DNA from: Siderastrea siderea
Lineage: Eukaryota > Cnidaria > Anthozoa > Scleractinia > Rhizangiidae
NCBI GenBank assembly: GCA_964030785.1
Contig: OZ034970.1
Span: 17,662,411-17,726,410 of the forward strand
Length of the DNA stretch: 64,000 bases
Direction: 5' to 3'
Shown piece by piece: positions 33,419 through 48,785 of the stretch. A program made the translations under genes and the position numbers. The stretch's first letter is position 1. Each line of letters begins with the position of its first letter. Under the pieces are notes generated by a model. That model did no database searches and was not told the origin of the DNA. It worked only from the letters and a program-made list of their open reading frames with translations.

Positions 33419-35137
33419 TTATGGCACTCTATATTCAATCAACATTAAGAGTTCTTGATTTTTCACAACTGAACCCAGTTCCACAGCCAAATGACCAAAC
33501 GCTAGTACTAAATTGATATTTATTGTCTGTGATTTAGTTGATTGGGTTGAAGTGTAAGTGATTGATTGAGTTAAATGGTCACTGTGTTTTATTTTTAAAG
33601 AAATAGGCTTATATTTACTTTTGAGCTTGAAATAGAGCACTGTTATAGTTAATATGTGGCTATGATTTGGAATAATTATTTTGTCACAACCATTCAATAA
33701 AAATGTGTTCCCGTTTTTCGTATTTAAATACCCATGTATATAATGAACTGAACCACTTAATTTATACCCATTTAAAGACAAATCTGTTTGCATTACCATT
33801 TTACCATTTTCTACAACGTACGCCGTATCATACACATCCGAGTCTACATTACTCTGTGATCCTTTGACTCCATATACAATCAAATAACCAACTCCTTGAG
33901 TGGAGCTACTTGCAGTGCCCTGACAATGCATGTCAATGTAAATGTATTCGGGAGGAGTTATGCTCCACTTATGTAAGTGAACAATCGATCTACTGTAATT
34001 AACAAACAGCTTAGTTGATTGTTGACCAATATTTAGTGAAGTGGAAACGACACTCACTGACAAATTTGTTGTGCTTGGAGGGAAAAATTCAATAGCCAAA
34101 GTGTACTCGCCTTCTGGAAGTTTGAACATGTTAAAGCCAATGCGAGAAGAATACTCATTTTGAGCGTCTTTCCCCATTTTAAATTTATAAGCTTTTTTGT
34201 TGACATTGTGGAGGGAACCAGAAAAGTCAACAATGCCATCAACTATTATGTTGTTTTCACTTGAAGATTCATCGGCATTTTCCATGAGATACCTGAAAAC
34301 GTCTTTCTTGTTGGTTGAGCTGGTGATGTGAGACTCCTTGATTTTTGTGTCAAAGTAAGTTTTCAGCCCTACAGTCACATCACCTTTGGCGGCGTGTACC
34401 TTACTGCTGACATAGCCGACATTAGCTGCTGATTTTATGTCTTTGTCATCGGTGTTCAAGTTGATTATTGTTTTTTCATTTAAATTCAAGTTTCCAGTCA
34501 TATTGTTGGTGCCATCAACTTTGAGAAACTTTTTTTGTGTCATGTCATCAATTCTGTTGTTAACAAACTCGACACATGCGGCGTCTCTTTGGTTTGATGG
34601 AAGATCAAGATTGATAATTGAATTATTTTTCATATCAATATCAGATCCTTTATCCAGTTTTTTTTCAAGCTGATTTTCGACATACTTTTTGTTTGTGGCT
34701 TGATCTGCCTGTGTTGGGTCTTTCACATTGAAAATTGTATTATTATTCATATCAATATTTGCTTCCATTTGACCCCCTTCCTTCTTTGACAAGAATATCT
34801 CTCTTTGCGATTCATAATTGATAACCTTGTTGAGATTACCATGAACTGGATAATTGTCTTTTGGGACAACGAGTGACCCTGTCATCGTATCACCAGATAT
34901 TGCAACAAATTTAGATGTATCCACACTTGGAATCTTAGCTATTTCAGAATCAATATATTGTTTAGTAACCACATCATCATTATTAGTTCCTTGTTTTACA
35001 TTCACTAATTTTTTATTCTGCATATCATAATCATTATTAGCATCTAATTTAAATCCAATACCAGGTAAACCTCTTAAACCTATTTTACTTAGTCCTTGAG
35101 AATCATCATGATTAAGGATACCGTTAGTATAACTCAT
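33419..35137 (-). CDS. Fibre-like attachment protein (inner)
   Basis: 572 residues. The N-terminal 280 residues contain about four copies of a unit of the type 'DMxNxxIxNxxxPxxxxDAxxxxYVxxxI', a pattern familiar from phage tail fibres and shaft repeats. The C-terminal 250 residues are beta-rich and unlike those of the outer copy, as expected for a receptor-binding head. Its 5' end follows the ATPase stop by 12 bp, so the two are probably co-transcribed. Assignment as fibre is by architecture and position. Confidence 0.65.
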   Translation of the reverse strand: MSYTNGILNHDDSQGLSKIGLRGLPGIGFKLDANNDYDMQNKKLVNVKQGTNNDDVVTKQYIDSEIAKIPSVDTSKFVAISGDTMTGSLVVPKDNYPVHGNLNKVINYESQREIFLSKKEGGQMEANIDMNNNTIFNVKDPTQADQATNKKYVENQLEKKLDKGSDIDMKNNSIINLDLPSNQRDAACVEFVNNRIDDMTQKKFLKVDGTNNMTGNLNLNEKTIINLNTDDKDIKSAANVGYVSSKVHAAKGDVTVGLKTYFDTKIKESHITSSTNKKDVFRYLMENADESSSENNIIVDGIVDFSGSLHNVNKKAYKFKMGKDAQNEYSSRIGFNMFKLPEGEYTLAIEFFPPSTTNLSVSVVSTSLNIGQQSTKLFVNYSRSIVHLHKWSITPPEYIYIDMHCQGTASSSTQGVGYLIVYGVKGSQSNVDSDVYDTAYVVENGKMVMQTDLSLNGYKLSGSVHYIHGYLNTKNGNTFLLNGCDKIIIPNHSHILTITVLYFKLKSKYKPISLKIKHSDHLTQSITYTSTQSTKSQTININLVLAFGHLAVELGSVVKNQELLMLIEYRVP

Positions 35138-35148
35138 ATATTATTGGT

Positions 35149-35796
35149 TTATATTCTTTCATCGAAATTTCGGGCTACCTTTTTTTTGACCTTATCAACA
35201 TACAAAAAACTATATGGATCCTTAGTAGCTTTCTGATAATCTGATTTATTTATGTTCAGTTCTCGACAAATCATGGATTGCTCGTTTATAGAAGGAAAAT
35301 CAAAAACACAAAAATGTGAACTATTCAGTCTTATTGTTTTATCGGTTCCGTAATAGCTTTGACTCAAATATATACAACAACAATTTTTATTTCTTGAATT
35401 GGTGAAGTAGTCTCGTATCCGTTCGTCATTTTTCTTACCTGTATTCAAATAGTCATCAAATATGATTAATTTTTGGTTTTCATCAGACAAATCTGTGAGA
35501 GGGATGATTTCATCGTTACTTGCTTCTATCACGTCATAACCGACCTCTTTTGATTTTGATATTGGTTCAAGAGATTTCAACAGATGCTTATATTTGCTTT
35601 GTTGGAGATTTCGAGCATAAAGGTATATCTTATCAAAATAGAGAAGCCTATATATCATATCAAGCAAAAGGTTAGTCTTGCCACCACCAGAGGGAGCACA
35701 AATAAGCATCCTGAAACATCGGTTTGGCATGAAACTCTTTAATTGAACAAAATCGTTGTTTTCATCATCTTGAATGTCGTAATTTTGAATCTTCAT
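35149..35796 (-). CDS. A32/FtsK-like DNA-packaging ATPase (inner)
   Basis: 215 residues, a normal size for Polinton packaging ATPases. Walker A is 'APSGGGKTNLL' at about residue 33 and Walker B 'LIIFDDYL' at about 108. The C-terminus has the 'YLSQSYYGTDKTIR' block typical of the HerA/FtsK superfamily in large DNA viruses. It pumps the genome into capsids. It is divergently transcribed from the PPxY-protein gene across a 128-bp region with GC-rich iterons. The outer element retains only its first eight codons or so. Confidence 0.9.
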   Translation of the reverse strand: MKIQNYDIQDDENNDFVQLKSFMPNRCFRMLICAPSGGGKTNLLLDMIYRLLYFDKIYLYARNLQQSKYKHLLKSLEPISKSKEVGYDVIEASNDEIIPLTDLSDENQKLIIFDDYLNTGKKNDERIRDYFTNSRNKNCCCIYLSQSYYGTDKTIRLNSSHFCVFDFPSINEQSMICRELNINKSDYQKATKDPYSFLYVDKVKKKVARNFDERI

Positions 35797-35924
35797 ATGA
35801 TAATATGTTATACAATTTTATCGCATGGCGACACGCTATGCGACACGCTATGCGAGCGTTTTTATATATGATAACCCTAATTTTTCCGAACAAAATACGA
35901 GATTTTATGTAAACAAATTATATA
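35797..35924. promoter_or_regulatory. Divergent promoter region with GC-rich iterons (inner)
   Basis: Between the ATPase (-) and PPxY (+) genes. The words cgacacgctatg occur twice in tandem, flanked by cgcatgg and gcgagcg, so that CGCAT/ATGCG half-sites form inverted repeats (35,820-35,860) in otherwise very AT-rich DNA. The outer element's copy (51,109-51,238) differs at about two positions. It may be a bidirectional promoter, origin or packaging site. Confidence 0.5.
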
Positions 35925-36920
35925 ATGAGTTTACTCAAATGGAAAGAAATGGCTGAGAAACGATCCGAGCTTGGTAAAAAGATTAACACAGTAAGAGAGA
36001 CAATAAAAAAAAAAACGATATCTGATCAAATGGGTGAAGTCGAGGCAGAGAAACTTTTCAAACCTATAACATCTGAGTTAAAGGAACTTACAGCCCCAAA
36101 AGCACCGTTGAGAAGATTACCAAAGAAAAAGCGACCTGTTCCAGATTATGGAATAGCTATTGATGATGAAGTGCCTGATTATGGATTGGAAGATCTATTT
36201 GGTGATCAAGTTCTACCACAAAATGACAAACAATTGGTTCCAAAACCTCCAAGTTATGAAGACGTCCTCGAGGATTTAGCATCAGGTAAAAAACAAATGT
36301 ATATAGATCCAGAATATATGTATGAACCTGAAGATCTTCCACCTGAATACGAAGAAGAAGAAGGACCTGATTATAACATTCTCGAGGAGGATGCAATTAA
36401 CCAAGCTTTAGATAAATTGAATATTCCGAACTACAATGATGTTGAATTACGTCTAACAGAAAAGGATATGGATAATAAAAAGAGTAAAGCTTATCTGAAC
36501 AAAATCTTGAAAAATGCTAAAGATCAACGTTCGAAACTAAATGGTTATTGGAGTGATATCACTAAAAAATTAAATAGTGGTTTAATGACTGAAGCTGAGG
36601 CTCAATATCGAAGAAAGGTCATTACTGATACGAGGAAGGTTTTAAATAATTATATCAATTACAACAATCAAAGATTAAAAAATATTAAAGGGTCTGGTTT
36701 GAAGAAAAAAACAAAAAGAGGTGGACAGGTAATGTTTTTCAATAATCCGACAGAAATGATGAAAAAACTGGAACTGATTATCGGATCAAAGGTTGCTGGT
36801 AATAATAGCATCGAACTACGGAATACAGGCGTCGCTCTTCTCGACATCTTGTTGAGAAATTCAATACTCAATAAGCCACAATACAACAAAATATACAAAA
36901 ACTATTTTAGTCTAAACTAA
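35925..36920 (+). CDS. PPxY-containing structural-type protein (331 aa, inner)
   Basis: The N-terminus is basic and helical (residues 1-60). The middle is acidic and Pro-rich, with 'VPDYG' repeats and two PPxY motifs (PPSY at 108-111, PPEY at 139-142), a signature that recruits NEDD4-type ubiquitin ligases in many viruses and in adenovirus protein VI. A helical domain follows, then 'IKGSG' at about 259, resembling an adenain site, and a conserved C-terminal helical domain. It precedes the minor capsid gene by 8 bp. A pVI-like role is inferred. Confidence 0.6.
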   Translation: MSLLKWKEMAEKRSELGKKINTVRETIKKKTISDQMGEVEAEKLFKPITSELKELTAPKAPLRRLPKKKRPVPDYGIAIDDEVPDYGLEDLFGDQVLPQNDKQLVPKPPSYEDVLEDLASGKKQMYIDPEYMYEPEDLPPEYEEEEGPDYNILEEDAINQALDKLNIPNYNDVELRLTEKDMDNKKSKAYLNKILKNAKDQRSKLNGYWSDITKKLNSGLMTEAEAQYRRKVITDTRKVLNNYINYNNQRLKNIKGSGLKKKTKRGGQVMFFNNPTEMMKKLELIIGSKVAGNNSIELRNTGVALLDILLRNSILNKPQYNKIYKNYFSLN

Positions 36921-36928
36921 TCATATAA
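36911..36928 (+). promoter_or_regulatory. TCTAA-type leader of the minor capsid gene
   Basis: tctaaactaatcatataa directly before the ATG at 36,929. It is nearly identical to the major capsid leader. Confidence 0.5.
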
Positions 36929-37690
36929 ATGAATAGACAACTTATCTTATCATCCCATTCAGTCAGAAACAAAAATGGTAATAAACCTAGTGATTTCATA
37001 ATCAAATACATCAATCCAATAATTCTCGATCCAAATCGACAATATGAAATCGGCCTCGACCGAATCATTTCGATGTCATTTACTTGGTTTAATGTGACAA
37101 AAGAACTAAATAATCAGAAAATAAGATATTCGTCTGATAGTGGTGCTAATTGGACGGAAATTATATTTAACCCAGGAGTCTGGAATTACGTTGATTTTGA
37201 CAATTTAATCAAAGAAAAAACAAAAACAGGAACCTCATCAAACCCTCAATATCCAATCACTCTCGAGTTTGACGACACGATATTTAGGACAATAATAACA
37301 CTTGCCTCAAATTACAGATTAGATCTAACTCAAAGTAATTTTAATGATCTTATTGGTTTCAATAAAAAAATACTAACTAGTGGTGAAAACGTTGGAGATT
37401 ACATTCCTAATCTATCTCAAGACAGAGAAATCCTCAATATTCATAGTGACCTCATATCCGAAAGTCTAGTTGATGGTGATGAAACGGATATTATATATAG
37501 TTTCAGTACCTCGACTCTCACCCCGAGTTATAGTTTCACACAAGAGCCTCGACGAGTACAGTTCAATCCTGTTAATAAAAATACTATCAATCAAATAAGA
37601 ATGTTTATTACAGACGGTAAAAGGAGAATCATCGATCTTAATCATAGTGACACTTCATTCAGTTTGATTTTAAGAGAGAAGAGAGATTAA
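36929..37690 (+). CDS. Minor capsid protein, single jelly-roll (penton-like), inner
   Basis: 253 residues, beta-rich throughout. Its N-terminal 'LILSSHSVRN...KPSDFIIKYINPI' and 'YEIGLDRIISMSFTWFNV' blocks are typical of Polinton penton-like proteins. It forms the capsid vertices. It sits between the PPxY and 116-aa genes, each separated by under 20 bp. The outer copy (49,342-50,103) is intact and of equal length. Confidence 0.8.
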   Translation: MNRQLILSSHSVRNKNGNKPSDFIIKYINPIILDPNRQYEIGLDRIISMSFTWFNVTKELNNQKIRYSSDSGANWTEIIFNPGVWNYVDFDNLIKEKTKTGTSSNPQYPITLEFDDTIFRTIITLASNYRLDLTQSNFNDLIGFNKKILTSGENVGDYIPNLSQDREILNIHSDLISESLVDGDETDIIYSFSTSTLTPSYSFTQEPRRVQFNPVNKNTINQIRMFITDGKRRIIDLNHSDTSFSLILREKRD

Positions 37691-37708
37691 TCTAACTAAT
37701 AGTTATAG
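37691..37708 (+). promoter_or_regulatory. TCTAA-type leader of the 116-aa gene
   Basis: tctaactaatagttatag directly before the ATG at 37,709, with the same 18-nt spacing as the capsid genes. Confidence 0.5.
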
Positions 37709-38059
37709 ATGGTATCATATGAATATAAACGTGTATATCACCCGAAACTAGGTCGTTTTGTGTATAAGCATAAAGGATCTGGGATTATTGTTGATAACAT
37801 ATTCAAACCAGTTGGAAGGGTGTTAAGTAAAGTTCCAGAAATGGTTTTAAAACCTTTTGCCAAAAAAGCGCTTGAATCTGGTATTTCACATGCTGGAGAC
37901 AAACTGGGAAAAAAAGCAGCTGAAAAAAGCGGAGAGCTTATTATGAGAAAATTACATGGTTTAACTAAACAACCAATGAAACCTACCAAACCTACTAAAC
38001 CAAAACAAGAAGATTACAACACGATTCTGAATAGACTTATATCTGGTACTGGATATTAA
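37709..38059 (+). CDS. Basic amphipathic structural protein (116 aa, inner)
   Basis: 116 residues, strongly basic. After 'HPKLGRFVYKHKGSG' comes a long predicted amphipathic region (IIVDNIFKPVGRVLSKVPEMVLKPFAKKALESG), then a Lys/Pro tail (KPTKPTKPK) and a C-terminal ISGTGY resembling an adenain cleavage site. The features resemble membrane-lytic or core proteins of adenoviruses, but homology is not shown. It lies 31 bp before the major capsid gene. The orthologue in the outer element is the insertion site of this element. Confidence 0.6.
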   Translation: MVSYEYKRVYHPKLGRFVYKHKGSGIIVDNIFKPVGRVLSKVPEMVLKPFAKKALESGISHAGDKLGKKAAEKSGELIMRKLHGLTKQPMKPTKPTKPKQEDYNTILNRLISGTGY

Positions 38060-38072
38060 AAAGTGAATTTTA

Positions 38073-38090
38073 TCTAAACTACTCATATAA
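38073..38090 (+). promoter_or_regulatory. TCTAA-type leader of the major capsid gene
   Basis: tctaaactactcatataa directly before the ATG at 38,091. Identical in the outer element. Confidence 0.55.
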
Positions 38091-39380
38091 ATGAGTTTCA
38101 GAACAAATGAAAATCTACAACGATATGAATACGTTCGTTTCCATTTGGATAATGTCATTGAGCAACCTGCTAACAATCAAAGCCAGAAAAAGACAGGTTA
38201 CAGATTCACAATCAACGATAGGTCGACTATGTTCGATTTTTTTAATGGGTATTTCGAAGTAACTAAAGAGCTTCAAAAAAGGGCAGATGGTGTTGGATAT
38301 GCTCAAGCGGATCGCATCACTATGATAAACGGATCTCACAGTCTAATCAGACATATGGTTATTAAATCGTCTGGTAAAATCGTGTATGAGAGTGATAATT
38401 TGCATCGAATAACGAATGTCAAAAATCTCCTTGAATACAGTGATGATTATAGTAGATCCGTTGGAAAGAATTCATTCTGGTATATTGATACTGATGGAAC
38501 ATCAGCAGCTACTAATACAGGTTTCGAAGCCCGTCGCATTTTAACCCAGGCTCATCAGAATAACGGCGGTGGAGGAGCTAAGAGTATTAACGAAATGATT
38601 CCCTTAAACAGATACAGCTTTTTTCAAGAGCTAGAAAGAAAAATGTTGCCTCCGATGCAGCTCACAATTGAACTTACATTTAACGAAGACAGTGAACTGA
38701 TTCACATGGCAAATGGCACAGACCCTGGTCGTGTTGTAGTAAAGAGATTGTATCTTTGGCTCCCAAGATTAATCCCAAAAGACAGCATGTATAGTAATTT
38801 CGTTTCAGAGTTTCTCAAGCCAACAACCTGGACATATATGCGAGATCTCTACAATCAGTCAGCAAATACCAGAGCTATTCAGAATATGTTTCAAATCAGT
38901 CCAGCTATTGATGACGTTAAACATGTTTTTATATATCTCCAGAGGACAGACGGACCAAATGATGATGAAGCAGAGAGGAGTCCGTATTTATTTGACACTT
39001 TCAAGTTGAATGCAGCTGATGCTAATAGCTCTCTATCAAACTGCAGGCTTGAATACGGGAATAATGTTTTTTACCCAGAGCTGGAATATGATAGTGACTC
39101 TAAAATACGGATATTTAATGATCTCATGTCATATGCATTTCGTAAGAACGATTACAATTCAGGAACACAGCTTAATGTATCCAATTTCACTAGTTTGTAT
39201 GGATTATTGTATTTCGATTTGTCATATCAGAAAGAGGTAGTGACGAGAGATCCTAAACAGTTGATTCTCCATTATCGTCTCAATGTAGCCCCGACAGCAA
39301 ACGTCCGAGCTCATAGCATCGTATTTTACGAGAGTGAGGTTGTAGTAAAGACAGTTGGAAACGAATTGATGATAGTTTAA
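38091..39380 (+). CDS. Major capsid protein, double jelly-roll (hexon-like), inner
   Basis: 429 residues and colinear with the outer copy, with only scattered substitutions that cluster in two loops (about residues 135-165 and 210-220). These are presumably surface-exposed. The same conserved blocks ('MFDFFNGYFEV', 'LPPMQLTIEL', 'YLWLPRLIPKD') are present. It forms the trimeric capsomers of the icosahedral shell. It is expressed from a TCTAAAC leader. Confidence 0.85.
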   Translation: MSFRTNENLQRYEYVRFHLDNVIEQPANNQSQKKTGYRFTINDRSTMFDFFNGYFEVTKELQKRADGVGYAQADRITMINGSHSLIRHMVIKSSGKIVYESDNLHRITNVKNLLEYSDDYSRSVGKNSFWYIDTDGTSAATNTGFEARRILTQAHQNNGGGGAKSINEMIPLNRYSFFQELERKMLPPMQLTIELTFNEDSELIHMANGTDPGRVVVKRLYLWLPRLIPKDSMYSNFVSEFLKPTTWTYMRDLYNQSANTRAIQNMFQISPAIDDVKHVFIYLQRTDGPNDDEAERSPYLFDTFKLNAADANSSLSNCRLEYGNNVFYPELEYDSDSKIRIFNDLMSYAFRKNDYNSGTQLNVSNFTSLYGLLYFDLSYQKEVVTRDPKQLILHYRLNVAPTANVRAHSIVFYESEVVVKTVGNELMIV

Positions 39381-39439
39381 ATAAATAAGTTTTACATCGA
39401 TGAAAATTTAAATGAATATGTTTTTTAAAAGAGAATTTA

Positions 39440-39454
39440 TCTAACATATATTAT
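39440..39454 (+). promoter_or_regulatory. TCTAA-type leader of the core-like gene
   Basis: tctaacatatattat before the ATG at 39,455. A near-identical word occurs without a start codon after the integrase gene (43,090-43,106). Confidence 0.5.
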
Positions 39455-40303
39455 ATGACACAACTATACGAAATTAAAGTTAGTTTATCACCAAACCAGA
39501 AAAAGAATCTTAGTAACGCGTATCATAAAAGAGAAACAATAGTTCTAAGGCTCGCGAAGGACTCTCTATCTGGGAATGATACTCTGTATGTACCTCAGAA
39601 TATAGTTAAGCGATTGGAAAAAAATAGAAAATTGAAAAAGGGAATGGACATTAAACTTTCTAAAACAAACATTCGAAAGCAAGTAGGTGGATCTCTTCTG
39701 TCTACAGTTCTGGCGCTTGGAAGAACTTTTGCACCAACATTAGCAAAAACTATTGGTTTATCAGCCTTGGCTGGAGCAGCTAGTGAAGGAGCATCTCAGA
39801 TTGTTAAGAAGATATCCGGAAAAGGTGTTCAAACCGGTGGGTTCCTCATACCACAAAATAAAATCGACCAGTTGATAGCATATAAACATCTTTTGACAAC
39901 CAAACAAAAGAAGGATATATTAAATGCTCTACAAACAGGTTCTGGTGTTCATATAAAACCAACAAAAGTACAGACAGGAGGGTTCTTGGGCACTCTTCTT
40001 GCATCAATTGGAGTCCCTTTGGCTATTGAGGCAATAAAGAAGATGACTGGTAAAGGTGCCCCTCAGATGGAACAACCGAAACAAAGACCACCCAGATCTA
40101 TACCAGAACCAAGTACTGCTAACAATCAGGATGGTGGTTTGTTAGTTCCGACGTATAGAACTCCACCTTTTTATGGAAATTGGCCGAACGGTACAATCGG
40201 TATGGGGAGAAAAAAAAAAGCTCCCAAAAAAAAAGGAGAGGGTCTACTATTGGGCAAGAACTCACCCTTCAAAAACGTCCCACTGTTAAACATTCTGTTG
40301 TAA
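39455..40303 (+). CDS. Core-like/membrane-active structural protein 'X' (inner)
   Basis: 282 residues, colinear with the outer copy. Candidate adenain sites are ISGKG at 120-124 and MTGKG at 197-201. They bracket a region with two 'QTGGFL' repeats (at about 126 and 173). Hydrophobic segments lie at about 80-110 and 175-195. The C-terminus is Lys-rich and encoded by A-runs, within which the protease frame opens. Processing at the two sites would release three peptides, reminiscent of adenovirus core or pVI maturation. That parallel is inference. Confidence 0.65.
   Translation: MTQLYEIKVSLSPNQKKNLSNAYHKRETIVLRLAKDSLSGNDTLYVPQNIVKRLEKNRKLKKGMDIKLSKTNIRKQVGGSLLSTVLALGRTFAPTLAKTIGLSALAGAASEGASQIVKKISGKGVQTGGFLIPQNKIDQLIAYKHLLTTKQKKDILNALQTGSGVHIKPTKVQTGGFLGTLLASIGVPLAIEAIKKMTGKGAPQMEQPKQRPPRSIPEPSTANNQDGGLLVPTYRTPPFYGNWPNGTIGMGRKKKAPKKKGEGLLLGKNSPFKNVPLLNILL
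40210..40234 (+). other. Candidate -1 frameshift or slippage site, core-like to protease (inner)
   Basis: Codons AGA AAA AAA AAA GCT CCC AAA AAA AAA give A AAA AAA at 40,210-40,216, 40,213-40,219 and 40,228-40,234. A six-pair stem GAGGGT/ACCCTT follows, and a TGGG in its loop can pair with a CCCA downstream, a possible H-type pseudoknot. The pairing is modest. Polymerase slippage is an alternative. Confidence 0.5.
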
Positions 40304-40761
40304 AACCGAAATTCCATAAGAATGTCCCATTAAGCAATTATGATTTAATAAAATGGTGTAAATATCTGGATATTCCAATCAAAGATGTATTGTCAAGAGA
40401 TGAAACTGTCCCACATGATCATCAACAGGCACTATTCATTTACAATCTTGAACCGAGTTATATGTCAGGGAGTCATTGGGTAGCTACTTATGTTAAGGAC
40501 AAAGTCATCAATTACTTTGATAGTTTTGGTTTGCCCCCCTTCCAAGAAATGGTCAATCACGCGAGAAAAAAGAATTTAACATTACTTCATCAGAACAATC
40601 AAATACAAAATTTACTGACGACAACATGCGGTTACTTCTGTTTGTACTTTTTGAATGAGATGAATAAGGGTAAATCATATTTTGATCTGCTTCAGGTATT
40701 TGATATATATGATACGACGAAGAATGAGAGGTTTCTAGCACGGTATTTCAAAAATATCTAA
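40219..40761 (+). CDS. Adenain/Ulp1-like cysteine protease, -1 frame relative to core-like protein (inner)
   Basis: About 180 residues with His in 'SGSHWVATY', Asp in 'NYFDSFG', Gln in 'IQNLLTTTCG' and Cys seven residues later. As in the outer copy there is no AUG before the one adjoining the catalytic His. The frame extends upstream into the core-like ORF; its first in-frame near-cognate is a TTG at 40,180. Expression by -1 frameshift at the A-runs would make a core-protease fusion, matching the fact that the core-like protein carries likely cleavage sites. The gene ends 11 bp before the first zinc-ribbon gene. Confidence 0.85.
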   Translation, partial: SSQKKRRGSTIGQELTLQKRPTVKHSVVKPKFHKNVPLSNYDLIKWCKYLDIPIKDVLSRDETVPHDHQQALFIYNLEPSYMSGSHWVATYVKDKVINYFDSFGLPPFQEMVNHARKKNLTLLHQNNQIQNLLTTTCGYFCLYFLNEMNKGKSYFDLLQVFDIYDTTKNERFLARYFKNI

Positions 40762-40772
40762 CTCATACATAT
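40757..40772 (+). promoter_or_regulatory. TCTAA-type leader of zinc-ribbon gene 1
   Basis: tctaactcatacatat before the ATG at 40,773. It overlaps the protease stop codon. Confidence 0.45.
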
Positions 40773-41174
40773 ATGAGATCATATTGTGTGAAACAAAAAA
40801 AGGTCACAGAATGTGTACCTGGGAGTGAACGATATGAAAAGGCTAAAAATGGGAGGCTTATGCTTAAATGCAAATGCTCTGAATGTGGAATCACTGAGAC
40901 AAAATTCGTTAAAAGCCGAAAGGGAGGTGAAAATCCATTAGGTAAAGCTTTTGAGGCAGCCAAAATAGCCGAACAAATAACACGAAAAGTTATTCCATCA
41001 ACAAATCATGTATTCGACAGATATTGGTCTGGTGATATCTTGAAAGGTGCTTTCAATGATAAAACTGGTATAACAAGCAAGAAATTCTGGACAAGACCAA
41101 AGAAGGGTACTGTTATGCGTGTAGTAAAAAATCCAAAAACTGGTAAATATGAGAATGTATACATTGAACCATAA
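40773..41174 (+). CDS. Zinc-ribbon-like protein 1 with extra C-terminal domain (inner)
   Basis: 133 residues. The first 50 are the zinc-ribbon-like unit (SYCVKQ, ECVPG, CKCSECGIT) and almost identical to the outer 61-aa protein. The remaining 80 are unrelated and basic (KAFEAAKIAEQITRKV..., ending with a Lys/Gly-rich VVKNPKTGKYENVY). It is the first of three tandem copies of this unit in the inner element; the outer has one. The function is unknown. Confidence 0.65.
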   Translation: MRSYCVKQKKVTECVPGSERYEKAKNGRLMLKCKCSECGITETKFVKSRKGGENPLGKAFEAAKIAEQITRKVIPSTNHVFDRYWSGDILKGAFNDKTGITSKKFWTRPKKGTVMRVVKNPKTGKYENVYIEP

Positions 41175-41178
41175 ACTA

Positions 41179-41194
41179 TCTAATCAAATAGTAG
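41179..41194 (+). promoter_or_regulatory. TCTAA-type leader of zinc-ribbon gene 2
   Basis: tctaatcaaatagtag before the ATG at 41,195. Confidence 0.45.
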
Positions 41195-41392
41195 ATGATA
41201 TCTTATTGTTTGAGACAGAAGAAATATACAAACTGCCTTCCTGACTCTGAAAGTTTGGTGGAAGCAAAAGATGGAAGATTAATGATGAAGTCTACTTGCA
41301 TTGAATGTGGAATGACGAAAAAACATTTCATCAAACGGCCGAGAACGGTAGCGCTTATGATGCGGCGAATGTTGGATAGTAATCTTATATAA
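41195..41392 (+). CDS. Zinc-ribbon-like protein 2 (inner)
   Basis: 65 residues with the same Cys scaffold (SYCLRQ, NCLPDSE, CIECGMT). It is the most diverged of the three units and has a short basic tail. It stands alone, with its own TCTAA leader and stop codon. The divergence suggests the triplication is not recent or that this copy evolves faster. Confidence 0.6.
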   Translation: MISYCLRQKKYTNCLPDSESLVEAKDGRLMMKSTCIECGMTKKHFIKRPRTVALMMRRMLDSNLI

Positions 41393-41403
41393 TCAAATAT
41401 TAT

Positions 41404-41601
41404 ATGAGATCTTATTGCGTTAAGCAGAAAAAACAGACAGAATGTGTACCTGGTTCTGAAAGAATAGTAAAATCCAAAAATGGAAGATCGATGATGAAAT
41501 GCACTTGTGCTGAATGCGGAATAACGAAGACCAAATTTGTCAAACAATCGGGAAACGGATTAGCCCGTCTCAAAAGGGCGGGCAAACGGGTAGTGCTTTA
41601 A
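41404..41601 (+). CDS. Zinc-ribbon-like protein 3, 0 frame of the frameshift series (inner)
   Basis: 65 residues (SYCVKQ, ECVPG, CTCAECGIT) with a Gly/Arg/Lys tail that overlaps the PLA2-like frame. The slippery heptamer G GGA AAC lies at codons 49-51 or so. This unit is the positional equivalent of the single outer copy. The tail residues are dictated by a GC-rich segment that also forms the predicted hairpin, so coding and RNA structure overlap here. Confidence 0.7.
   Translation: MRSYCVKQKKQTECVPGSERIVKSKNGRSMMKCTCAECGITKTKFVKQSGNGLARLKRAGKRVVL
41550..41583 (+). other. Predicted -1 frameshift signal, zinc-ribbon to PLA2-like (inner)
   Basis: G GGA AAC at 41,550-41,556 in the zinc-ribbon phase, spacer ggatta (6 nt), hairpin GCCCGTCT-CAAAA-GGGCGGGC (41,563-41,583; eight pairs, two of them G-U). 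The arrangement, spacing and frame relation are the same as in the outer copy, although loop and stem bases differ. Confidence 0.75.
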
Positions 41602-42152
41602 TTCGACGAAAGCCAACAGCTGTAGATAAAGCAGCATATATTATGAGTAATTTTGTAACACCAGCACCAAGTTTTGCAGCCCTTGGAAGGATACTTGCTG
41701 GACAAGCATTCAAAGGTATTAAAGATAATGTTGATTATTACAGAGGAGGTGCTGTTGATATCCATAAACTAATTGGGAAAATACCAAAACCAAAAGGTGG
41801 ATGGACACCTGGAAATAATAAATACATGGGGCCTTATAATCCTCTCGAGAAGCAGTTGGAGTATAACAAGAATACTGGAAAGGTGACCAAATGGAAGTTG
41901 AAACCTCTCAATAAAGTGGATGAAATAGCAGCTTATCATGATATTTGTTATGACATGGGGAAAAACAAGGGTGAATGTGACAGAAAAATGGTCAAGTCAT
42001 TGGATGAAATACCTTATGGTGAAATGCCAAAATGGGGACAAACTGCTCGTTTTTTGATTAATACAAAGCAGAAACTGGGTCTCGGTGTGAAACAAAGGAA
42101 GACAAAAAACGGGAAAGGCCGTCGAGTGAAGAAAACTGGCAAGAAAAATTAG
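41556..42152 (+). CDS. Parvovirus VP1-type PLA2-like protein, -1 frame product (inner)
   Basis: 198 residues after the proposed slip. Ca-loop-like 'NKYMGPYNPLEKQ' and the catalytic 'YHDICYD' are present. Compared with the outer copy, the segment between the slip site and the PLA2 core is shorter and different (a 'SNFVTPAPSFAALG' stretch replaces 'PWLGKKAVEMGRYYG'). An ATG exists in this frame at 41,514, upstream of the slip site and inside the zinc-ribbon gene, so initiation there is a possible alternative in this copy only. Role: membrane breach at entry, by analogy with parvoviruses. Confidence 0.8.
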   Translation, partial: RISPSQKGGQTGSALIRRKPTAVDKAAYIMSNFVTPAPSFAALGRILAGQAFKGIKDNVDYYRGGAVDIHKLIGKIPKPKGGWTPGNNKYMGPYNPLEKQLEYNKNTGKVTKWKLKPLNKVDEIAAYHDICYDMGKNKGECDRKMVKSLDEIPYGEMPKWGQTARFLINTKQKLGLGVKQRKTKNGKGRRVKKTGKKN

Positions 42153-42197
42153 CTGATGAATTACACAAACCCATAAAACGTAACTTTACTCGGCGGC
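42104..42197 (+). other. Predicted -1 frameshift signal, PLA2-like to integrase (inner)
   Basis: A AAA AAC at 42,104-42,110 in the PLA2 phase, spacer gggaaag (7 nt), stem GCCGTCGAGTGAAG (42,118-42,131) with CTTTACTCGGCGGC (42,184-42,197). The single base change from the outer copy turns a U-A pair into U-G, preserving pairing. The PLA2 stop (42,150-42,152) is in the loop. Confidence 0.8.
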
Positions 42198-43069
42198 GTG
42201 TTTTAGTAAACGGCATTGACGAGATATGGTATTCAGATCTTGTTGAGATGCAACAGTTTAGTCGATGGAACGCTGGCTACAGATACCTTCTCATGGTTCT
42301 AGATGTGTTCAGTAAATATGGTTGGATAGTCCCTTTAAAAGACAAAAAAGGAGAAACTCTTGCTCAGGCATTAAAAACTATCCTTAAAGAAGGTAGAAAA
42401 CCGGAATATTTATGGACAGACAAAGGCAAAGAGTATTACAACAAACATGTTAAAGAACTACTTGATAAGAATAAAATAACCTTGTACTCAACTGAGAATG
42501 AGGAAAAGTCGTCAGTTTGTGAAAGATGGAACAGAACAATTAAAACCAAGATGTGGAAGCAGTTTACTGTTCAAGGTAATACACAGTATTTAGACATGCT
42601 ACCCAAATTAGTGAAACAGTATAACAACACTAAACATAGCTCTATCAAAATGACACCCATAGAAGCCAGTCAAAAGAAAAATGAAGGGACTGTTTACTTC
42701 AATCTGTATGGTAATTTGGAGAAAGTATCATCTAAACCGAAATTCAAAATAGGTGATAAGGTTAGAATAAGTAAGTATAAACGGAAGGTGTTTGATAAAG
42801 GCTATACACCAAATTGGTCTGAGGAAGTTTTTACAGTTGTTAAAATCCAATATACGAATCCAATAACTTACAAACTAAAGGATCTCAGAGGTGAAGACAT
42901 TCAAGGGAGTTTTTATGAACCTGAATTATTAAAAGCAAAACAAGAGGTATTCAGAATCGATAAAGTCATTCGGAGGGATTATAAGAAGAAACAAGCTTTA
43001 GTTAAGTGGAAGGGATATAGTAATGACTTTAATAGTTGGATTCCGTTAAAGGACTTGAAGGATATATAA
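42110..43069 (+). CDS. int: Retroviral-like integrase with chromodomain, -1 frame product (inner)
   Basis: 319 residues from the slip site to TAA, the same length as the outer copy. DDE residues: Asp in 'IWYSDLVEM' (about 42,235), Asp in 'WTDKGKEYYN', Glu in 'VCERWNRTIK'. The chromodomain is 'VFRIDKVIRR...KWKGYSNDFNSWIP'. The first Met (42,248) lies just after the first Asp, and no in-frame AUG precedes it. The upstream region 'QEKLADELHKPIKRNF' is conserved in this frame in both copies, so it is translated. The chromodomain may steer insertion to marked chromatin. Confidence 0.9.
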   Translation, partial: RERPSSEENWQEKLADELHKPIKRNFTRRRVLVNGIDEIWYSDLVEMQQFSRWNAGYRYLLMVLDVFSKYGWIVPLKDKKGETLAQALKTILKEGRKPEYLWTDKGKEYYNKHVKELLDKNKITLYSTENEEKSSVCERWNRTIKTKMWKQFTVQGNTQYLDMLPKLVKQYNNTKHSSIKMTPIEASQKKNEGTVYFNLYGNLEKVSSKPKFKIGDKVRISKYKRKVFDKGYTPNWSEEVFTVVKIQYTNPITYKLKDLRGEDIQGSFYEPELLKAKQEVFRIDKVIRRDYKKKQALVKWKGYSNDFNSWIPLKDLKDI

Positions 43070-43086
43070 AAGCGGTTTAAAGAGAA

Positions 43087-43167
43087 TTATCTAACATATA
43101 TTATATCTATTGATACAGTATATGCTGTCTTTTGCTTTTGGTAGCCAAAAATATAATTGTTTCTGGC
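43087..43167. promoter_or_regulatory. Conserved noncoding element with two palindromes (inner)
   Basis: After the integrase stop: TTATCTAACATATATTATAT, then ACAGTATATGCTGT (43,115-43,128), then TTTTGG-tag-CCAAAA (43,136-43,150). It matches the outer element (27,130-27,212), although the gene that follows there (DUF5754-like) is absent here. Confidence 0.5.
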
Positions 43168-43202
43168 GATCTTATTTAAACAGAAAATAATATATATATA
43201 AT

Positions 43203-44015
43203 ATGGAAATTTTCACTTATGAAGGAAAAAAACTGAATATTATCAAAAAGGATGATGACATATGGTTCCGTGCTAAAACTGTTGCAATTATTTTGGGATA
43301 TTCAAATTCACGAAAAGCGATTAATGATCATGTTAATTCTGAAGATAAATGTACACTGAACGAGCTCAAATCCAAAGGTAACGAATCGTTACCTTTGACT
43401 GGGAACCTCAAAAACACTATTTATATAAATGAATCCGGACTATACAGCCTCATTTTGAGATCTGATATGGATAAAGCAAAGGAATTCAAACGATGGGTTA
43501 CTAAGGAAGTTTTACCATCAATCAGAAAAACCGGTAAGTATGAATTCAACAACAGGCCATACAAAATGCTGACATTCAATATCAACACAGAATATGATTT
43601 ACATAAAAAGGTAGTCAACTTTATTAGAAACAATTATCCTAAAGCAATCCTAATCCCAGCATTAGGTGAAAACCAAATTAATGGTAACATGAGAATAAAA
43701 TCATACAACATGGGTTATCAGAAGGGAGCTTGTGATCTATTCATTGGAAATATGCATTTGAAGTACTCAGGTTTTGCAATCGAATTTAAAACACCAACTG
43801 GTTATGGAAAGCTTTCAGAAGAACAGGAGATGATGCTACAAGAGTACGAAAACAACAATTACAAAATATTAGTCAGCAACGATTATGATGAAATCATTAA
43901 AGAAATCATACTTTATTTCCAGGGTGTAAGAATCAAATGCAAACATTGTTCCAGAAAATTCAAGTCAACAGAAACATTAAGCAATCATTTGAAATTCATA
44001 CACAAACACTTATAA
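43203..44015 (+). CDS. BRO-N / PD-(D/E)XK nuclease / C2H2 fusion (inner)
   Basis: 270 residues with the same three-part layout as the outer copy: BRO-N (WFRAKTVAIILGY, INESGLYSLIL, VLPSIRKTGKYEF), a nuclease with 'QKGACDLFI' and 'GFAIEFKTPTG', and a C2H2 finger (CKHCSRKFKSTETLSNH). Ser-Pro before the nuclease Asp in the outer copy is Ala-Cys here, but Asp, Glu and Lys are retained. The leader is a plain (AT)n run, unlike the TCTAA leaders, suggesting early expression with PolB. Confidence 0.75.
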   Translation: MEIFTYEGKKLNIIKKDDDIWFRAKTVAIILGYSNSRKAINDHVNSEDKCTLNELKSKGNESLPLTGNLKNTIYINESGLYSLILRSDMDKAKEFKRWVTKEVLPSIRKTGKYEFNNRPYKMLTFNINTEYDLHKKVVNFIRNNYPKAILIPALGENQINGNMRIKSYNMGYQKGACDLFIGNMHLKYSGFAIEFKTPTGYGKLSEEQEMMLQEYENNNYKILVSNDYDEIIKEIILYFQGVRIKCKHCSRKFKSTETLSNHLKFIHKHL

Positions 44016-44045
44016 AGAGAAAAATAATATATAGATTATATATAT

Positions 44046-44306
44046 ATGGAAAATCAAAATGTAAAGAGAGGTCGAGGTAGACCAAAAAAGTATTCAACTG
44101 AAGAGGAGAAGAAGGAGGCTATAAAACAACAAAAATCGAAGTACATGCTAAATAAGGAATGGTATTGTGATATATGCAATACTGGTCGTAATTATACTCT
44201 AGCTGGTAAATGGTGTCATTTGAACACAAAAAAGCACATTAAAAATGTCCATGAAATCAATATGAAAGAGGTAAGGAATGAAATAACACGGATACTAAAT
44301 CCATGA
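44046..44306 (+). CDS. AT-hook plus zinc-finger small protein (inner)
   Basis: 86 residues. An AT-hook core (KRGRGRPKK) lies at 7-16, a Lys/Glu/Gln helix follows, then a finger-like 'WYCDICNTGRNYTLAGKWCHLNTKKHIK' pattern (Cys-x2-Cys ... His-x5-His). It is probably a DNA-binding regulator. It sits between the BRO-N nuclease and PolB genes in the same direction. The outer copy has a frameshift. Confidence 0.65.
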   Translation: MENQNVKRGRGRPKKYSTEEEKKEAIKQQKSKYMLNKEWYCDICNTGRNYTLAGKWCHLNTKKHIKNVHEINMKEVRNEITRILNP

Positions 44307-44419
44307 TAATCTTTTTTCATATAGTTCAAGGGATCCTATGTTTTGGATCATTTGAATTCTCGACCATATAAAACGCACCAATAATTACTTAAAAGAATAT
44401 CAATACTATAGTATATAGA

Positions 44420-47400
44420 ATGAAATCAGAAAAATCTAACCCTAATTATATGAATAAGAAAGATCTTAAGAAACTCAGTAAATCAGAACTCATCAAATTG
44501 CTTCTGAAGCAGGAGAAGAAGTCTAAAATCATAGTGGTTGACGATACCAAACCAGTTCCAGCACCAAGAACATACAAATCAAGGAGACCAATACCAACAC
44601 CTCGCAAGAGTGTCAAACAGATGGTTAAGCAGTACGAAAATAATATAATTCTACCGCCTCAAGAATTCAGGGATAATTACAAACCAATTCCTGCACCAAG
44701 AACCAAAAAACCAATGTATAAACCAGTACCAGAACCAAGAACCATAATAGAACAAAAAGACAAAGCTTTAAAAGGTTACACAAAGTCATTTGAAATCGGC
44801 ATCAGAAACAATAAAGACCCCTTATCCCAAATGCAAAACACAAGAAAGGCTGCAGAACGTCATGTAACAAATTTATTGAATGAAATGAAAGGCTTGAAAT
44901 ACGTTGAAACATTGAAAGTCACATTCGAAAAAAATTCAGGTAATGAAATAGTTGAAAAGTCAGCATATTTCAATAGCGCACCCCAAACAATAATTAACCA
45001 AATGGAAATCAATGAAGCATTACAAATGTCCAAACAAAATATCTTAAACCAGATCTCCCAGTGGATATCAGAAGGATCTGGTTGGACAGTCCAATCAGTT
45101 GATAGCCATTACCTCAACATTGTCAAATACAAACCCATTAAAGGATCCTCATATATCCAACTGCCTTCTGAACTGCGAAACAGTGCTAAGGGACTAATTA
45201 ACATGAAAAATGAGGATAATGAATGTTTCAGATGGTGTCATATCAGACATTTGAATCCACAAGATAAGGATTCTCAAAGAATTAAGAAGACTGACAGAAA
45301 ATACATTGAAAAGTTAAATTACTCAGGTGTTGAATTTCCAGTCAGTGTCAAACATTACAACAAAATTGAGAAGCAAAACAGTATCAATATAAATGTATTC
45401 GGATATGAAGAAAAACAGCCATATCCCATCTATGTTTCCAAAGAAAAGTATGAAGATCATATGGAACTACTTCTGGTAACTGAAAATGAAAACAAGCATT
45501 ATGTTCTCATAAAGAATTTCAACAAGTTCATGTATAATCAAACAAAACACAAAGAGAGAAAACACTTTTGTATGCAATGCCTGCAATGTTTCAGTTCTGA
45601 CAGGGTATTAAACAATCACAAAGAAAACTGTATTCAAGTGAACGGTACTCAAGCAATTAAAATGCCAGACAAAGACAATAACATACTGAAATTCAACAAC
45701 TTCCATAAACAGCAACCTGTGCCATTTGTCATTTATGCTGATTTTGAGGCTATAACTGAAAAGGTGCAAGGATGTCAACCAGACGGTAACAAATCATACA
45801 CCGAAGCATACCAAAGACATACAGACTGTGGATATGGATACAAGGTTGTCTGCTGTTATGATGAAAAATATACAAAACCAATACAAATATATAGGGGTGA
45901 AAAGTCTGTTTATAAATTCATGGAAAATATTTTAGAAGAAGTGAAATACTGCAAAAAAGTAATGAAAAAACATTTCAATAAACCATTGAGAATGACTAAA
46001 GAGAATGAACATGAATTTGAAAAAGCAAAAGAATGCCACATATGCGATAAAAAATATACTGAGAAAGACATTCGAGTCAGAGATCATTGTCATATTACTG
46101 GTAAATACAGAGGCTCAGCTCACCAAGAATGCAATCTGAAACTCAGAATAAATCCAAAAGAAATAAAAATTCCTGTTATATTCCATAATTTGAGAGGTTA
46201 TGACAGTCATTTCATTATGCAAGAAATTGGAGCTATTGTCAAGAATAATACATACACCAAAAACGGAAAAGAGATTAAAATGGACATAAATGCTATTCCA
46301 AATAACATGGAAAAATATATGGCGTTCATGCTTGGTAACCATCTGACATTCATTGACAGTTTCCAATTCATGAGCTCAAGTTTGGATAAATTAGTCAGCA
46401 ACTTACCAGCAGAAGCTTTAAAGTATACAAACCAAAAATTCAGGGGCAAAAAATTCAATCTTATGACACGAAAAGGTATTTATCCGTACGATTTCATGGA
46501 CAGTTTTGAGAAATTCAATAAAACAGAATTACCAAGTAAAGAAGAATTTTACAGCATATTGAATAATGAGCATATAACAGACGAGGATTATTGTCATGCT
46601 CAAAAAGTGTGGAATACATTTCAATTACAAACGATGGGTGAATACCACAATCTATATCTTAAGTCTGATATACTTCTATTAGCCGACGTGTTTGAAAACT
46701 TCCGCAAGACCTGTCTTCAGTATTACAAACTTGACCCATGCCACTATTTCACATCACCTGGTTTGAGTTGGGATGCAATGTTGAAGATGACTGATATTAA
46801 ATTGGAACTAATGACAGACATAGACATGTTTCAATTCATTGAAAAAGGCATGCGTGGTGGTATATCTTATATTGCCAATCGATATGGTAAAGCGAATAAC
46901 AAGTACATGAGAGAATACGATGAGAATGCACCCTCAAAATACATTATGTATCTTGATGCTAATAATTTATACGGTTGGGCAATGAGCCAATACCTCCCAA
47001 CTAGTAGTTTCAAATGGTTGACTGAAAAGCAGATTAATAAAATCAATTTAGCAAAATACAATGAAGAAAGCAATAAAGGATTGATACTAGAAGTTGATCT
47101 AGAATACCCAAAAGAGTTGCATGATTTGCATAACGACTACCCTCTTGGAGCGGAAAAAGTTAAAGTGACTGATGACATGTTGTCTGCATATTGTAATAAC
47201 ATACAGAAAAAATTCAACATATCGACAGGACTGGTAAACAAACTGATCCCTACTTTATGCGACAAAGAAAAATATGTTTTACACTACAGAAACCTGCAGC
47301 TGTATCTTAATCTTGGATTGAAAGTAAAGAAAGTCCACCGAGTATTAGAATTCAACCAGTCTCCATGGCTAAAGCAATATATAGACTTCAATACACTAAA

Positions 47401-48214
47401 ACGTACTGAAGCGAAAAATTCATTCGAAAAAGACTTCTTCAAACTTATGAATAACTCAGTATTCGGTAAAACTATGGAAAATATAAGAAAACGAGTTGAC
47501 GTCAGACTTGTGACTGATGAAAATAAATTATTGAAGATGGCTTCCAAACCTACTTATGTAAGCAGTAAGATATTCAACGAAAATCTAGTTGCAGTGCATA
47601 AAATTAAGGAAACGCTAACCCTGAACAGGCCAGCATATGTGGGAATGTGTATTCTTGATCTGAGCAAGACATTGATGTATGATTTTCATTATAACTACAT
47701 AAAAGAAAAGTATGGTAATAATGCTAAACTACTATTCACTGACACAGACAGTTTGACATATGAGATTGAAGCTGAAGATGTGTACCGAGACTTTTGGAAT
47801 GATAAAGATCGATTTGACAACAGCGACTACCCTGAAAGCTCGCAGTATTTCGATAAGAAAAACAAAAAGGTAATAGGTAAATTCAAAGATGAAGCTTGCG
47901 GTATTCCAATAACAGAATTCGTCGGTTTGCGATCAAAAATGTACAGTTACATAAAAGACAACCAGAAAGGAGGAAAAACAGCCAAAGGAATTAAGAAGAA
48001 CATAATAAAGAACAACATCAAACATGAAGACTACAAAAATGTTTTATTAGAAAATAAACAAATGCAACATACTATGAAAACTATTCGAAGCAGCAAACAT
48101 CTACTAGGTAGTTATGAAATAAACAAAGTATCACTCAGCTGCTTCGATGACAAAAGATATATATCAAATAATGGAATGAACAGTTTAGCTTATGGTCATT
48201 ATTACATTAAATAA
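44420..48214 (+). CDS. polB: Protein-primed DNA polymerase B (inner)
   Basis: 1,264 residues. N-terminal PxPR repeats lie at about 40-115. A C2H2-like finger is at about 385-405, the exonuclease 'IYADFEA' at about 438, and the HNH-like zinc motif (CHICDK...RDHCHITGKYRG) at about 540-575. Polymerase motif A 'DANNLYGWAM' is at about 845, motif B 'NNSVFGKTMENI' at about 1,010 and motif C 'FTDTDS' at about 1,106. All catalytic acids are present. The leader contains actatagtata, shared with the outer copy. It converges on the 187-aa gene, 7 bp beyond its stop. Confidence 0.95.
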   Translation: MKSEKSNPNYMNKKDLKKLSKSELIKLLLKQEKKSKIIVVDDTKPVPAPRTYKSRRPIPTPRKSVKQMVKQYENNIILPPQEFRDNYKPIPAPRTKKPMYKPVPEPRTIIEQKDKALKGYTKSFEIGIRNNKDPLSQMQNTRKAAERHVTNLLNEMKGLKYVETLKVTFEKNSGNEIVEKSAYFNSAPQTIINQMEINEALQMSKQNILNQISQWISEGSGWTVQSVDSHYLNIVKYKPIKGSSYIQLPSELRNSAKGLINMKNEDNECFRWCHIRHLNPQDKDSQRIKKTDRKYIEKLNYSGVEFPVSVKHYNKIEKQNSININVFGYEEKQPYPIYVSKEKYEDHMELLLVTENENKHYVLIKNFNKFMYNQTKHKERKHFCMQCLQCFSSDRVLNNHKENCIQVNGTQAIKMPDKDNNILKFNNFHKQQPVPFVIYADFEAITEKVQGCQPDGNKSYTEAYQRHTDCGYGYKVVCCYDEKYTKPIQIYRGEKSVYKFMENILEEVKYCKKVMKKHFNKPLRMTKENEHEFEKAKECHICDKKYTEKDIRVRDHCHITGKYRGSAHQECNLKLRINPKEIKIPVIFHNLRGYDSHFIMQEIGAIVKNNTYTKNGKEIKMDINAIPNNMEKYMAFMLGNHLTFIDSFQFMSSSLDKLVSNLPAEALKYTNQKFRGKKFNLMTRKGIYPYDFMDSFEKFNKTELPSKEEFYSILNNEHITDEDYCHAQKVWNTFQLQTMGEYHNLYLKSDILLLADVFENFRKTCLQYYKLDPCHYFTSPGLSWDAMLKMTDIKLELMTDIDMFQFIEKGMRGGISYIANRYGKANNKYMREYDENAPSKYIMYLDANNLYGWAMSQYLPTSSFKWLTEKQINKINLAKYNEESNKGLILEVDLEYPKELHDLHNDYPLGAEKVKVTDDMLSAYCNNIQKKFNISTGLVNKLIPTLCDKEKYVLHYRNLQLYLNLGLKVKKVHRVLEFNQSPWLKQYIDFNTLKRTEAKNSFEKDFFKLMNNSVFGKTMENIRKRVDVRLVTDENKLLKMASKPTYVSSKIFNENLVAVHKIKETLTLNRPAYVGMCILDLSKTLMYDFHYNYIKEKYGNNAKLLFTDTDSLTYEIEAEDVYRDFWNDKDRFDNSDYPESSQYFDKKNKKVIGKFKDEACGIPITEFVGLRSKMYSYIKDNQKGGKTAKGIKKNIIKNNIKHEDYKNVLLENKQMQHTMKTIRSSKHLLGSYEINKVSLSCFDDKRYISNNGMNSLAYGHYYIK

Positions 48215-48221
48215 GTTCAAA

Positions 48222-48785
48222 TTAAAACTCTAACATCAGTTCATCATCGATTTCTTCAGCAGTTGGTGTTGGTGTAGGCATTTGTCCAGCAGTATGTGCT
48301 TGTGTAGGCATTTGTCGAGCAGTAGGTGCTTGTGCGGGCATTTGTCCAGCAGTAGGCGCTTGTGCGGGCATTTGTTGAACATTTGGTGTAAAAATTTGTC
48401 CGAGACGCTGAGATCGTCTTCGCTTTTTTAAATTCGTCTTAAAATCTGAAGAATCAATTTTTGTTTTGATGACTTGTTTTATGGCTCTTCTCTTCCTCTC
48501 CGTTACAAGCATTCTTTGATACTCCTCCAAAACTTTCATGTGGGCTGTCACATTTCTCTCCTCAGTATACGTGTCAATGCTTTCCAAGTTACCAATAACT
48601 TGTGGTAAATCAAAAGAAATCAAATTATGACTTCCCATGAATGATTCAATTATTAAAATCGAATCTTGGATATTGTGAGAATAACTCTCATATCTTTTCG
48701 TAGCTTCGTCAAGACTGAGAGGCATCGTTGAGGTATCTTTCATCAACAGGAAGCAACTTCTGATATTTTTATCAAAATGGAGCAA
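48222..48785 (-). CDS. Pro/Ala/Thr repeat protein, inner-specific (187 aa)
   Basis: The N-terminal 120 residues are helical with a basic patch (RKRRAIKQVIKTK...KKRRRSQRLG), a likely nuclear localisation signal. The C-terminus has about five 10-11-residue repeats of the type QMPAQAPTAG/R, then an acidic end (EEIDDELMLEF). It lies at the right end next to the TIR and runs convergent to PolB. No counterpart exists in the outer element's 172-bp end. Function unknown; position and composition suggest an accessory or regulatory factor. The ATG at 48,785 was chosen as the first; Met at codon 15 is also possible. Confidence 0.55.
   Translation of the reverse strand: MLHFDKNIRSCFLLMKDTSTMPLSLDEATKRYESYSHNIQDSILIIESFMGSHNLISFDLPQVIGNLESIDTYTEERNVTAHMKVLEEYQRMLVTERKRRAIKQVIKTKIDSSDFKTNLKKRRRSQRLGQIFTPNVQQMPAQAPTAGQMPAQAPTARQMPTQAHTAGQMPTPTPTAEEIDDELMLEF

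Follow-up and report, generated by a model that had tools for sequence, protein, structure and literature searches.

Nested Polinton elements at the locus

The window, by which we mean the whole 64,000-nucleotide stretch of Siderastrea siderea contig OZ034970.1, holds two Polinton elements, one inside the other (Table 1). The inner element is inserted into the outer one and interrupts an outer stretch that matches the inner sequence at about 37,863. Terminal inverted repeats are present in both elements, and a 6-bp target duplication was found for the inner one, on which this was checked. A duplication of 6 bp is typical of Polinton/Maverick elements. The genes include an rve integrase with a chromodomain and a packaging ATPase (35149-35817; Pox_A32, 1.6e-10, above cut-off). 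Two large ORFs (44393-48214 and 21837-25613; 1273 and 1258 aa) match only Endonuclease_7 in Pfam, with neither a Pfam polymerase match nor a PDB sequence match. We suggest that they are probably the DNA polymerase, judging by their position and a DTDSL motif. The 429-aa capsid candidate is without a match in Pfam or PHROGs. On the 3' side of the integrase, a BRO-N protein (43191-44015) shows weak matches to VRR-NUC/PD-(D/E)XK and to zinc fingers.

Each element carries one copy of the gene series considered here, copy I in the inner element and copy O in the outer. A Zn-ribbon ORF, a PLA2-like ORF and the integrase ORF lie in successive -1 frames, with an in-phase heptamer at each junction and a stem in nearly all copies. 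The junction between the Zn-ribbon and PLA2-like ORFs is called J1, that between the PLA2-like ORF and the integrase J2, and the overlap of the p295 and protease-like ORFs J3.

Table 1. Positions in the window of the two elements and of the overlapping genes and signals in copies I and O.
Feature	Position	Strand	Remarks
Inner element	31880-49168		inverted ends 31880-32003 / 49045-49168; holds copy I
Target duplication of inner element	31874-31879 / 49169-49174		CTTTTT, 6 bp
Outer element	21427-54624		inverted ends 21427-21664 / 54387-54624, 99.6% identical; holds copy O
Copy I p295	39416-40303	+	upstream protein of J3; no confident family
Copy I protease-like ORF	40159-40761	+	-1 frame of p295; Peptidase_C5 below cut-off; first Met at codon 102
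Copy I J3 A10 and A9 tracts	40210-40234	+	in-phase A_AAA_AAA at 40210, 40213, 40228
Copy I Zn-ribbon ORF	41404-41601	+	65 aa; DUF5679-like, 1.2e-05, 25.8 bits, just below cut-off of 27
Copy I J1 heptamer G_GGA_AAC	41550-41556	+	
Copy I J1 hairpin	41563-41583	+	arms 41563-41569, 41577-41583; 6-nt spacer
Copy I PLA2-like ORF	41514-42152	+	Phospholip_A2_4, 2.8e-06, above cut-off; starts with AUG 12 codons before J1
Copy I integrase ORF	42062-43069	+	rve 1.9e-10 and chromodomain 1.3e-07, both above cut-off
Copy I J2 heptamer A_AAA_AAC	42104-42110	+	codons AAA AAC in PLA2 frame
Copy I J2 spacer	42111-42117	+	7 nt
Copy I J2 stem, 5' arm	42118-42131	+	dual-coding
Copy I PLA2 stop	42150-42152	+	within J2 stem loop
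Copy I J2 stem, 3' arm	42184-42197	+	coding in integrase frame only
Copy O J3 pair	28999-30341	-	p295 29457-30341; protease-like 28999-29544; A_AAA_AAA at 29544
Copy O Zn-ribbon ORF	28802-28987	-	
Copy O J1 heptamer G_GGA_AAC	28835-28841	-	
Copy O J1 hairpin	28809-28828	-	
Copy O PLA2-like ORF	28155-28847	-	first Met at codon 41, past J1
Copy O integrase ORF	27238-28230	-	
Copy O J2 heptamer A_AAA_AAC	28203-28197	-	
Copy O J2 stem-loop	28110-28189	-	arms 28189-28176, 28123-28110; all 14 pairs

Further copies were collected from the same genome (831 Mb, 402 contigs). A junction scan yielded 721 first-look candidates, of which 40 were scored and 30 fetched, and a scan for the PLA2 family yielded 2606, of which 150 were scored and 30 fetched. 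This integrase lay nearby in 5 of the 30 fetched PLA2-family stretches. A copy is called open here when its PLA2 frame has at least 195 codons and its integrase frame at least 310. To judge from these sequences, the genome holds several multiplied Polinton families. Phospholip_A2_4 matches number at least 150; they fall into several size classes, and many of them score alike (L108-L137 were fetched).

An integrase frame without its own start codon

According to the initial annotation, the integrase ORF overlaps the PLA2-like ORF in -1 and has no AUG ahead of its first catalytic Asp. Both points hold in the two window copies. Here the integrase frame begins past a stop inside the PLA2 gene. Its first Met, codon 63 in copy I and codon 58 in copy O, stands four residues past the Asp of IW(Y/C)SD(L/I)VEM. 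Neither window copy has AUG, CUG, GUG, UUG or ACG between the opening of the frame and this Asp, the only near-cognates of the stretch being AUA, AUU, AAG and AGG. Among the open copies, the first in-frame AUG lies past the Asp in 21 of 22, with L130 as the sole exception.

In the 31 single-coded integrase codons from the PLA2 stop to the first AUG, pN/pS is 0.14, and it is likewise 0.14 in 118 codons past this AUG; these values are given without an interval and come from 38 rows, 37 of them distinct, that are related to each other. The alignment was made from 62 input sequences, of which 37 aligned besides the reference, and the rest belong to other PLA2 families. By this measure, the segment is under the same purifying selection as the part downstream. 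Except in L130 and L151, the integrase is a conserved and selected -1 ORF that has no start of its own.

The selection test contradicts the view that these are dead copies whose frames were parted by an old mutation. At 14 of 36 loci, counting the fused locus L138, one frame is shorter than required for an open copy. However, both frames are open with the same junction in 22 of the 36, and we regard decay as extremely improbable.

Could the integrase have a start of its own, at a codon other than AUG or by reinitiation after termination at the PLA2 stop? In the sub-lineage of L130 and L151 a 3-nt insertion creates an AUG that overlaps the PLA2 stop (AUGA), eight codons past the slip site, and the heptamer is kept. 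Such a start would be at odds with the codon content of both window copies noted above, and would leave the heptamers, their phase and the stem without explanation. We consider it improbable. A spliced mRNA in which an upstream exon supplies the AUG for the integrase frame is a very improbable alternative, since it does not require slippery heptamers. Though copy I has two weak intron candidates under simple donor/acceptor rules, copy O has none under the same rules, and the two copies have no candidate in common. In addition, the parts of PMC8097293 considered here describe intact vertebrate Mavericks with intronless ORFs.

For the PLA2 frame, split at the first AUG found in copy O, pN/pS is 0.33 in the 24 codons ahead and 0.30 in the codons past it. 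When only copies I and O are compared, it is 0.68 before the first AUG and 0.53 after, which points to weak selection there or to a swapped segment. The N-terminal part of the PLA2 ORF (41634-41753) is almost wholly different between copies I and O, and the copy I version resembles a stretch in the other Polinton families L139 and L142. A module swap is likely in this part.

The signal at the PLA2-integrase junction

Both elements were said to have an in-phase A_AAA_AAC, a 7-nt spacer and a 14-bp stem at this junction, with the 0-frame stop in the stem loop and one base change in the inner copy that keeps the stem. All of this was verified, the position of the stop in copy I. The arms of copies I and O differ by one letter, which makes pair 5 a U.G in copy I where copy O has U-A. 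At J1 as at J2, a heptamer of the form X_XXY_YYZ lies in the phase of the upstream frame in both copies, and a stable structure begins within 5-9 nt on its 3' side (7 nt at J2, 6 nt at J1). In-phase slippery heptamers were listed for 21 ORFs of both elements, and in this list A_AAA_AAC occurs at J2 alone.

The fold of the 90 nt (copy I) or 89 nt (copy O) past the heptamer has a z-score of -3.2 or -5.4, respectively; over the longer 130 or 129 nt, the values are -0.8 and -4.4. Synonymous recoding was limited to the single-coded part downstream of the PLA2 stop. Only 5 of 5000 recodings of copy I and 12 of 5000 of copy O have a stem of at least 14 pairs, and the observed low energy was matched in 4 of 1500 and 0 of 1500.

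At the 36 loci, the heptamer is AAAAAAC in 33, AAAAAAA in one (L085, where the PLA2 frame is short) and AAAGAAC in one (L095, where the integrase frame is short); in L138 it is shorter and the two ORFs are in frame. With the short windows added, there are 51 loci at 50 places (L113 is the place of L143), and AAAAAAC is present in 48 of these 51, which came from a pattern requiring a similar 5' arm and the heptamer. Only L150 escaped this pattern among the same-family loci at hand that span J2. Much of the conservation of the heptamer and the 5' arm is also enforced by dual coding.

The 3' arm is more telling, as it codes in the integrase frame only. Its two Arg codons are CGG in 30 and CGA in 7 of 37 distinct junctions, and CGG in all 37. 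In the gene stretches that were counted, by contrast, 4 of 190 Arg codons are CGG. The letters of CGG and CGA are those that pair; neighbouring Arg codons also use T or C. Across the 37 junctions, 503 of 518 pair cells pair, with 14 pairs kept in 24, 13 in 11 and 12 in 2. Pair 11 is G.U in 20, G-C in 16 and A-U in one (L164). On the other side stands the commonest break, an A.C at pair 8, which is the sole 3'-arm break in 16 of 51 loci (10 of the 37 distinct junctions); L153 has it together with a second break. Since this A.C also occurs in open, near-identical copies, the stem tolerates a mismatch.

AAAAAAC is present in 22 of 22 open copies. Evidence to the contrary comes from L150, whose integrase is 76% identical and which keeps the -1 arrangement with no AUG before the Asp. 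In L150, an in-phase A_AAA_AAA (eight A) is followed by a 5-bp hairpin in place of the long stem, and the energies are near those of shuffles (z of -1.5, -1.0, -1.0 and -2.3 at four lengths). Thus, the arrangement may predate this particular stem. In L138 (G000:C1:774000-780500), PLA2 and integrase form one frame of 544 codons, and p295 and protease one of 435 codons. No other of the 150 scored PLA2 places has such an open frame, the next in length being 249 codons. L138 may be defunct, or it may be a variant that makes only the fusion.

Taken together, the phase, the conservation at 50 places of this one genome, the selection, the codon choice in the stem and the want of a common intron candidate under simple rules support the -1 frameshift reading of the initial annotation. 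The J2 signal is real and, from its sequence features, very likely works as a -1 frameshift signal.

A further signal ahead of the PLA2-like ORF

The PLA2-integrase signal noted earlier appears to be the second of two -1 signals in series. At J1 the heptamer sits in the Zn-ribbon ORF with the PLA2 frame in -1, and a GC-rich hairpin (GCCCGUC/GGCGGGC) follows six bases on. GGGAAAC was found in 44 of 44 places read, namely those of 36 rows (35 places), L148-L153 and the divergent windows L167-L169; the L170 window did not reach J1. The spacer is variable, with 14 forms in 42 loci collected by a pattern requiring the stem. GGGAAAC is absent from the same site of the paralogous upstream Zn-ribbon ORF in the six loci where this site was read (L096-L100, L106). 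In the window, the Zn-ribbon gene is tandemly duplicated (40770-40913 / 41401-41544, 73.6% identity); the first duplicate extends to 148 codons, and the second bears the J1 heptamer.

The PLA2 frame opens two codons before the J1 heptamer in 19 of 22 open copies. It has no AUG before J1 in 21 of the 22, its first Met lying past J1 (at codon 40 in 19). The exception is copy I, with a PLA2-frame AUG at 41514, 12 codons ahead of J1. Since this AUG is upstream, and a start at the first Met in most other copies would retain the PLA2 domain, J1 is not strictly needed for PLA2.

In L150, L167 and L168 a 0-frame stop comes directly past the J1 heptamer and the hairpin is kept; therefore, dual coding cannot account for the hairpin. 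It is rebuilt with other pairs in L167 (GCCCUC/GAGGGC) and L168 (GCCCGUAC/GUGCGGGC). For L150, L167 and L168, respectively, 10, 34 and 16 of 3000 synonymous recodings had an equally strong stem, and 5, 0 and 70 of 1500 reached the observed low energy. The fold z-score at J1 is -4.4 in copy O, -4.3 in L167 and -3.3 in L168; it is mild in L169 (-1.9) and not unusual in copy I (-1.1).

The p295-protease overlap

At J3 the protease frame is AUG-free for 57 codons (copy I) and 38 codons (copy O) ahead of LSNYD. The A-tracts are also present in L143; of five short windows, three extended to the tracts and had them. No structure at J3 stands above shuffles.

These tracts bear on another explanation, in which RNA polymerase rather than the ribosome slips on A-runs and mixes the frames. 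At J3, where A8-A10 tracts come without notable structure, polymerase slippage and ribosomal shifting are equally likely. L150, with its eight A at J2, also fits slippage by the polymerase. However, for the junctions as a whole we hold this to be quite improbable, since GGGAAAC at J1 has no such run, the run at J2 is no longer than six A in 48 of 51 loci, and the stems of J1 and J2 lie at ribosomal spacing.

Proposed expression of the integrase

We suggest that a retrovirus-like cascade from the Zn-ribbon to PLA2 to integrase, through two -1 frameshifts, is the best reading of these sequences, with a probability of roughly 0.8. The evidence at J1 and J2 consists of sequence anatomy, conservation and selection within one genome. 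A minority of the ribosomes that pass G_GGA_AAC on the Zn-ribbon ORF would move back by one base there, giving a Zn-ribbon-PLA2 protein. A fraction of these would slip again at A_AAA_AAC and give Zn-ribbon-PLA2-integrase. With two slips in series, the integrase would arise in small amounts and always as a C-terminal extension. Less firmly, the protease might be made as an extension of p295 at the A-tracts, and the purpose of the arrangement might be to fix stoichiometry and to bring the enzymes into the capsid attached to structural proteins, like retroviral Gag-Pro-Pol.

More broadly, these elements could represent a dsDNA Polinton lineage with a retrovirus-like polyprotein strategy, in which two serial frameshifts are joined by a third for the core protein and protease, and both enzymes, integrase and protease, reach the capsid as rare extensions of structural proteins. 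We put this forward tentatively, as somewhat less than an even chance. The fusion protein might be packaged into virions and cleaved inside them; particles of such elements had not been observed (PMC8097293).

If true, the cascade would explain how the Polinton integrase is produced, why it is scarce and how it might be carried by the particle, and would bear on when integrase is present in the virions of these elements. It would also show plainly that a eukaryotic dsDNA element can use the expression logic of retroviruses. Gene finders that require an AUG would label such integrases as truncated or decayed.

Comparison with known systems

Searches beyond this genome returned no relative of the junction. 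In IMG/VR, a protein query gave four stretches that matched a pattern and a two-row alignment search gave 60 stretches, with no relative among either; a motif pattern had 0 matches, and a second pattern had 77 loci, among which tblastn at E up to 1 found no relative. A tblastn search of a phage collection gave no match. In the literature searched, as far as the texts considered go, we found no described frameshift for a Polinton, Maverick or adintovirus integrase, in line with the initial annotation. For adintoviruses, hypothetical -1 sites predicted by KnotInFrame have been given for Penton C-termini and for Hexon-Adenain ('Hexain'); the frameshift section of that report, in the part considered, has none for integrase or PLA2 and no conservation test (PMC11071296). 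'Hexain' resembles J3 in that a -1 shift leads to a protease in the same broad virus group, and J3 may correspond to it, on the part of the report considered (PMC11071296).

The same genome has further Polinton families (L139, L140, L142, L147). They too have a PLA2-like protein, and their rve integrase bears a chromodomain, whose match in L147 is below cut-off. However, in these families PLA2 and integrase are separate genes, and PLA2 is not followed by the integrase. The integrase of L147 (393 aa), the only whole one read there, has its own AUG and an N-terminal part missing from the window integrase, to which it is 42.6% identical over 303 residues. A -1 overlap between PLA2 and an ORF upstream of it occurs in L139 and L142, and in L139 it has an in-phase A_AAA_AAG (at about 4266). 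However, there is a Met between A_AAA_AAG and the PLA2 domain in L139, and the short PLA2 ORF of L140 itself opens with Met. Frameshifting to PLA2 is possible in these other families.

In the IS3 family, the OrfAB transposase is made by -1 frameshifting. The likeness is that an rve-superfamily DDE recombinase is reached by a -1 frameshift from an upstream ORF, as predicted here. However, those elements are bacterial and use a single shift, and their upstream ORF is a part of the transposase and not a second enzyme.

The gag-pro-pol genes of MMTV and HTLV are expressed through two -1 frameshifts. They share with the window elements two -1 sites in series that end in an rve integrase, the same heptamer classes, and enzymes that are scarce and C-terminal, as is predicted for the window elements. 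The window elements differ in being self-synthesising dsDNA elements, in having the protease in another ORF pair, and in having a Zn-ribbon and a PLA2-like protein upstream in place of Gag.
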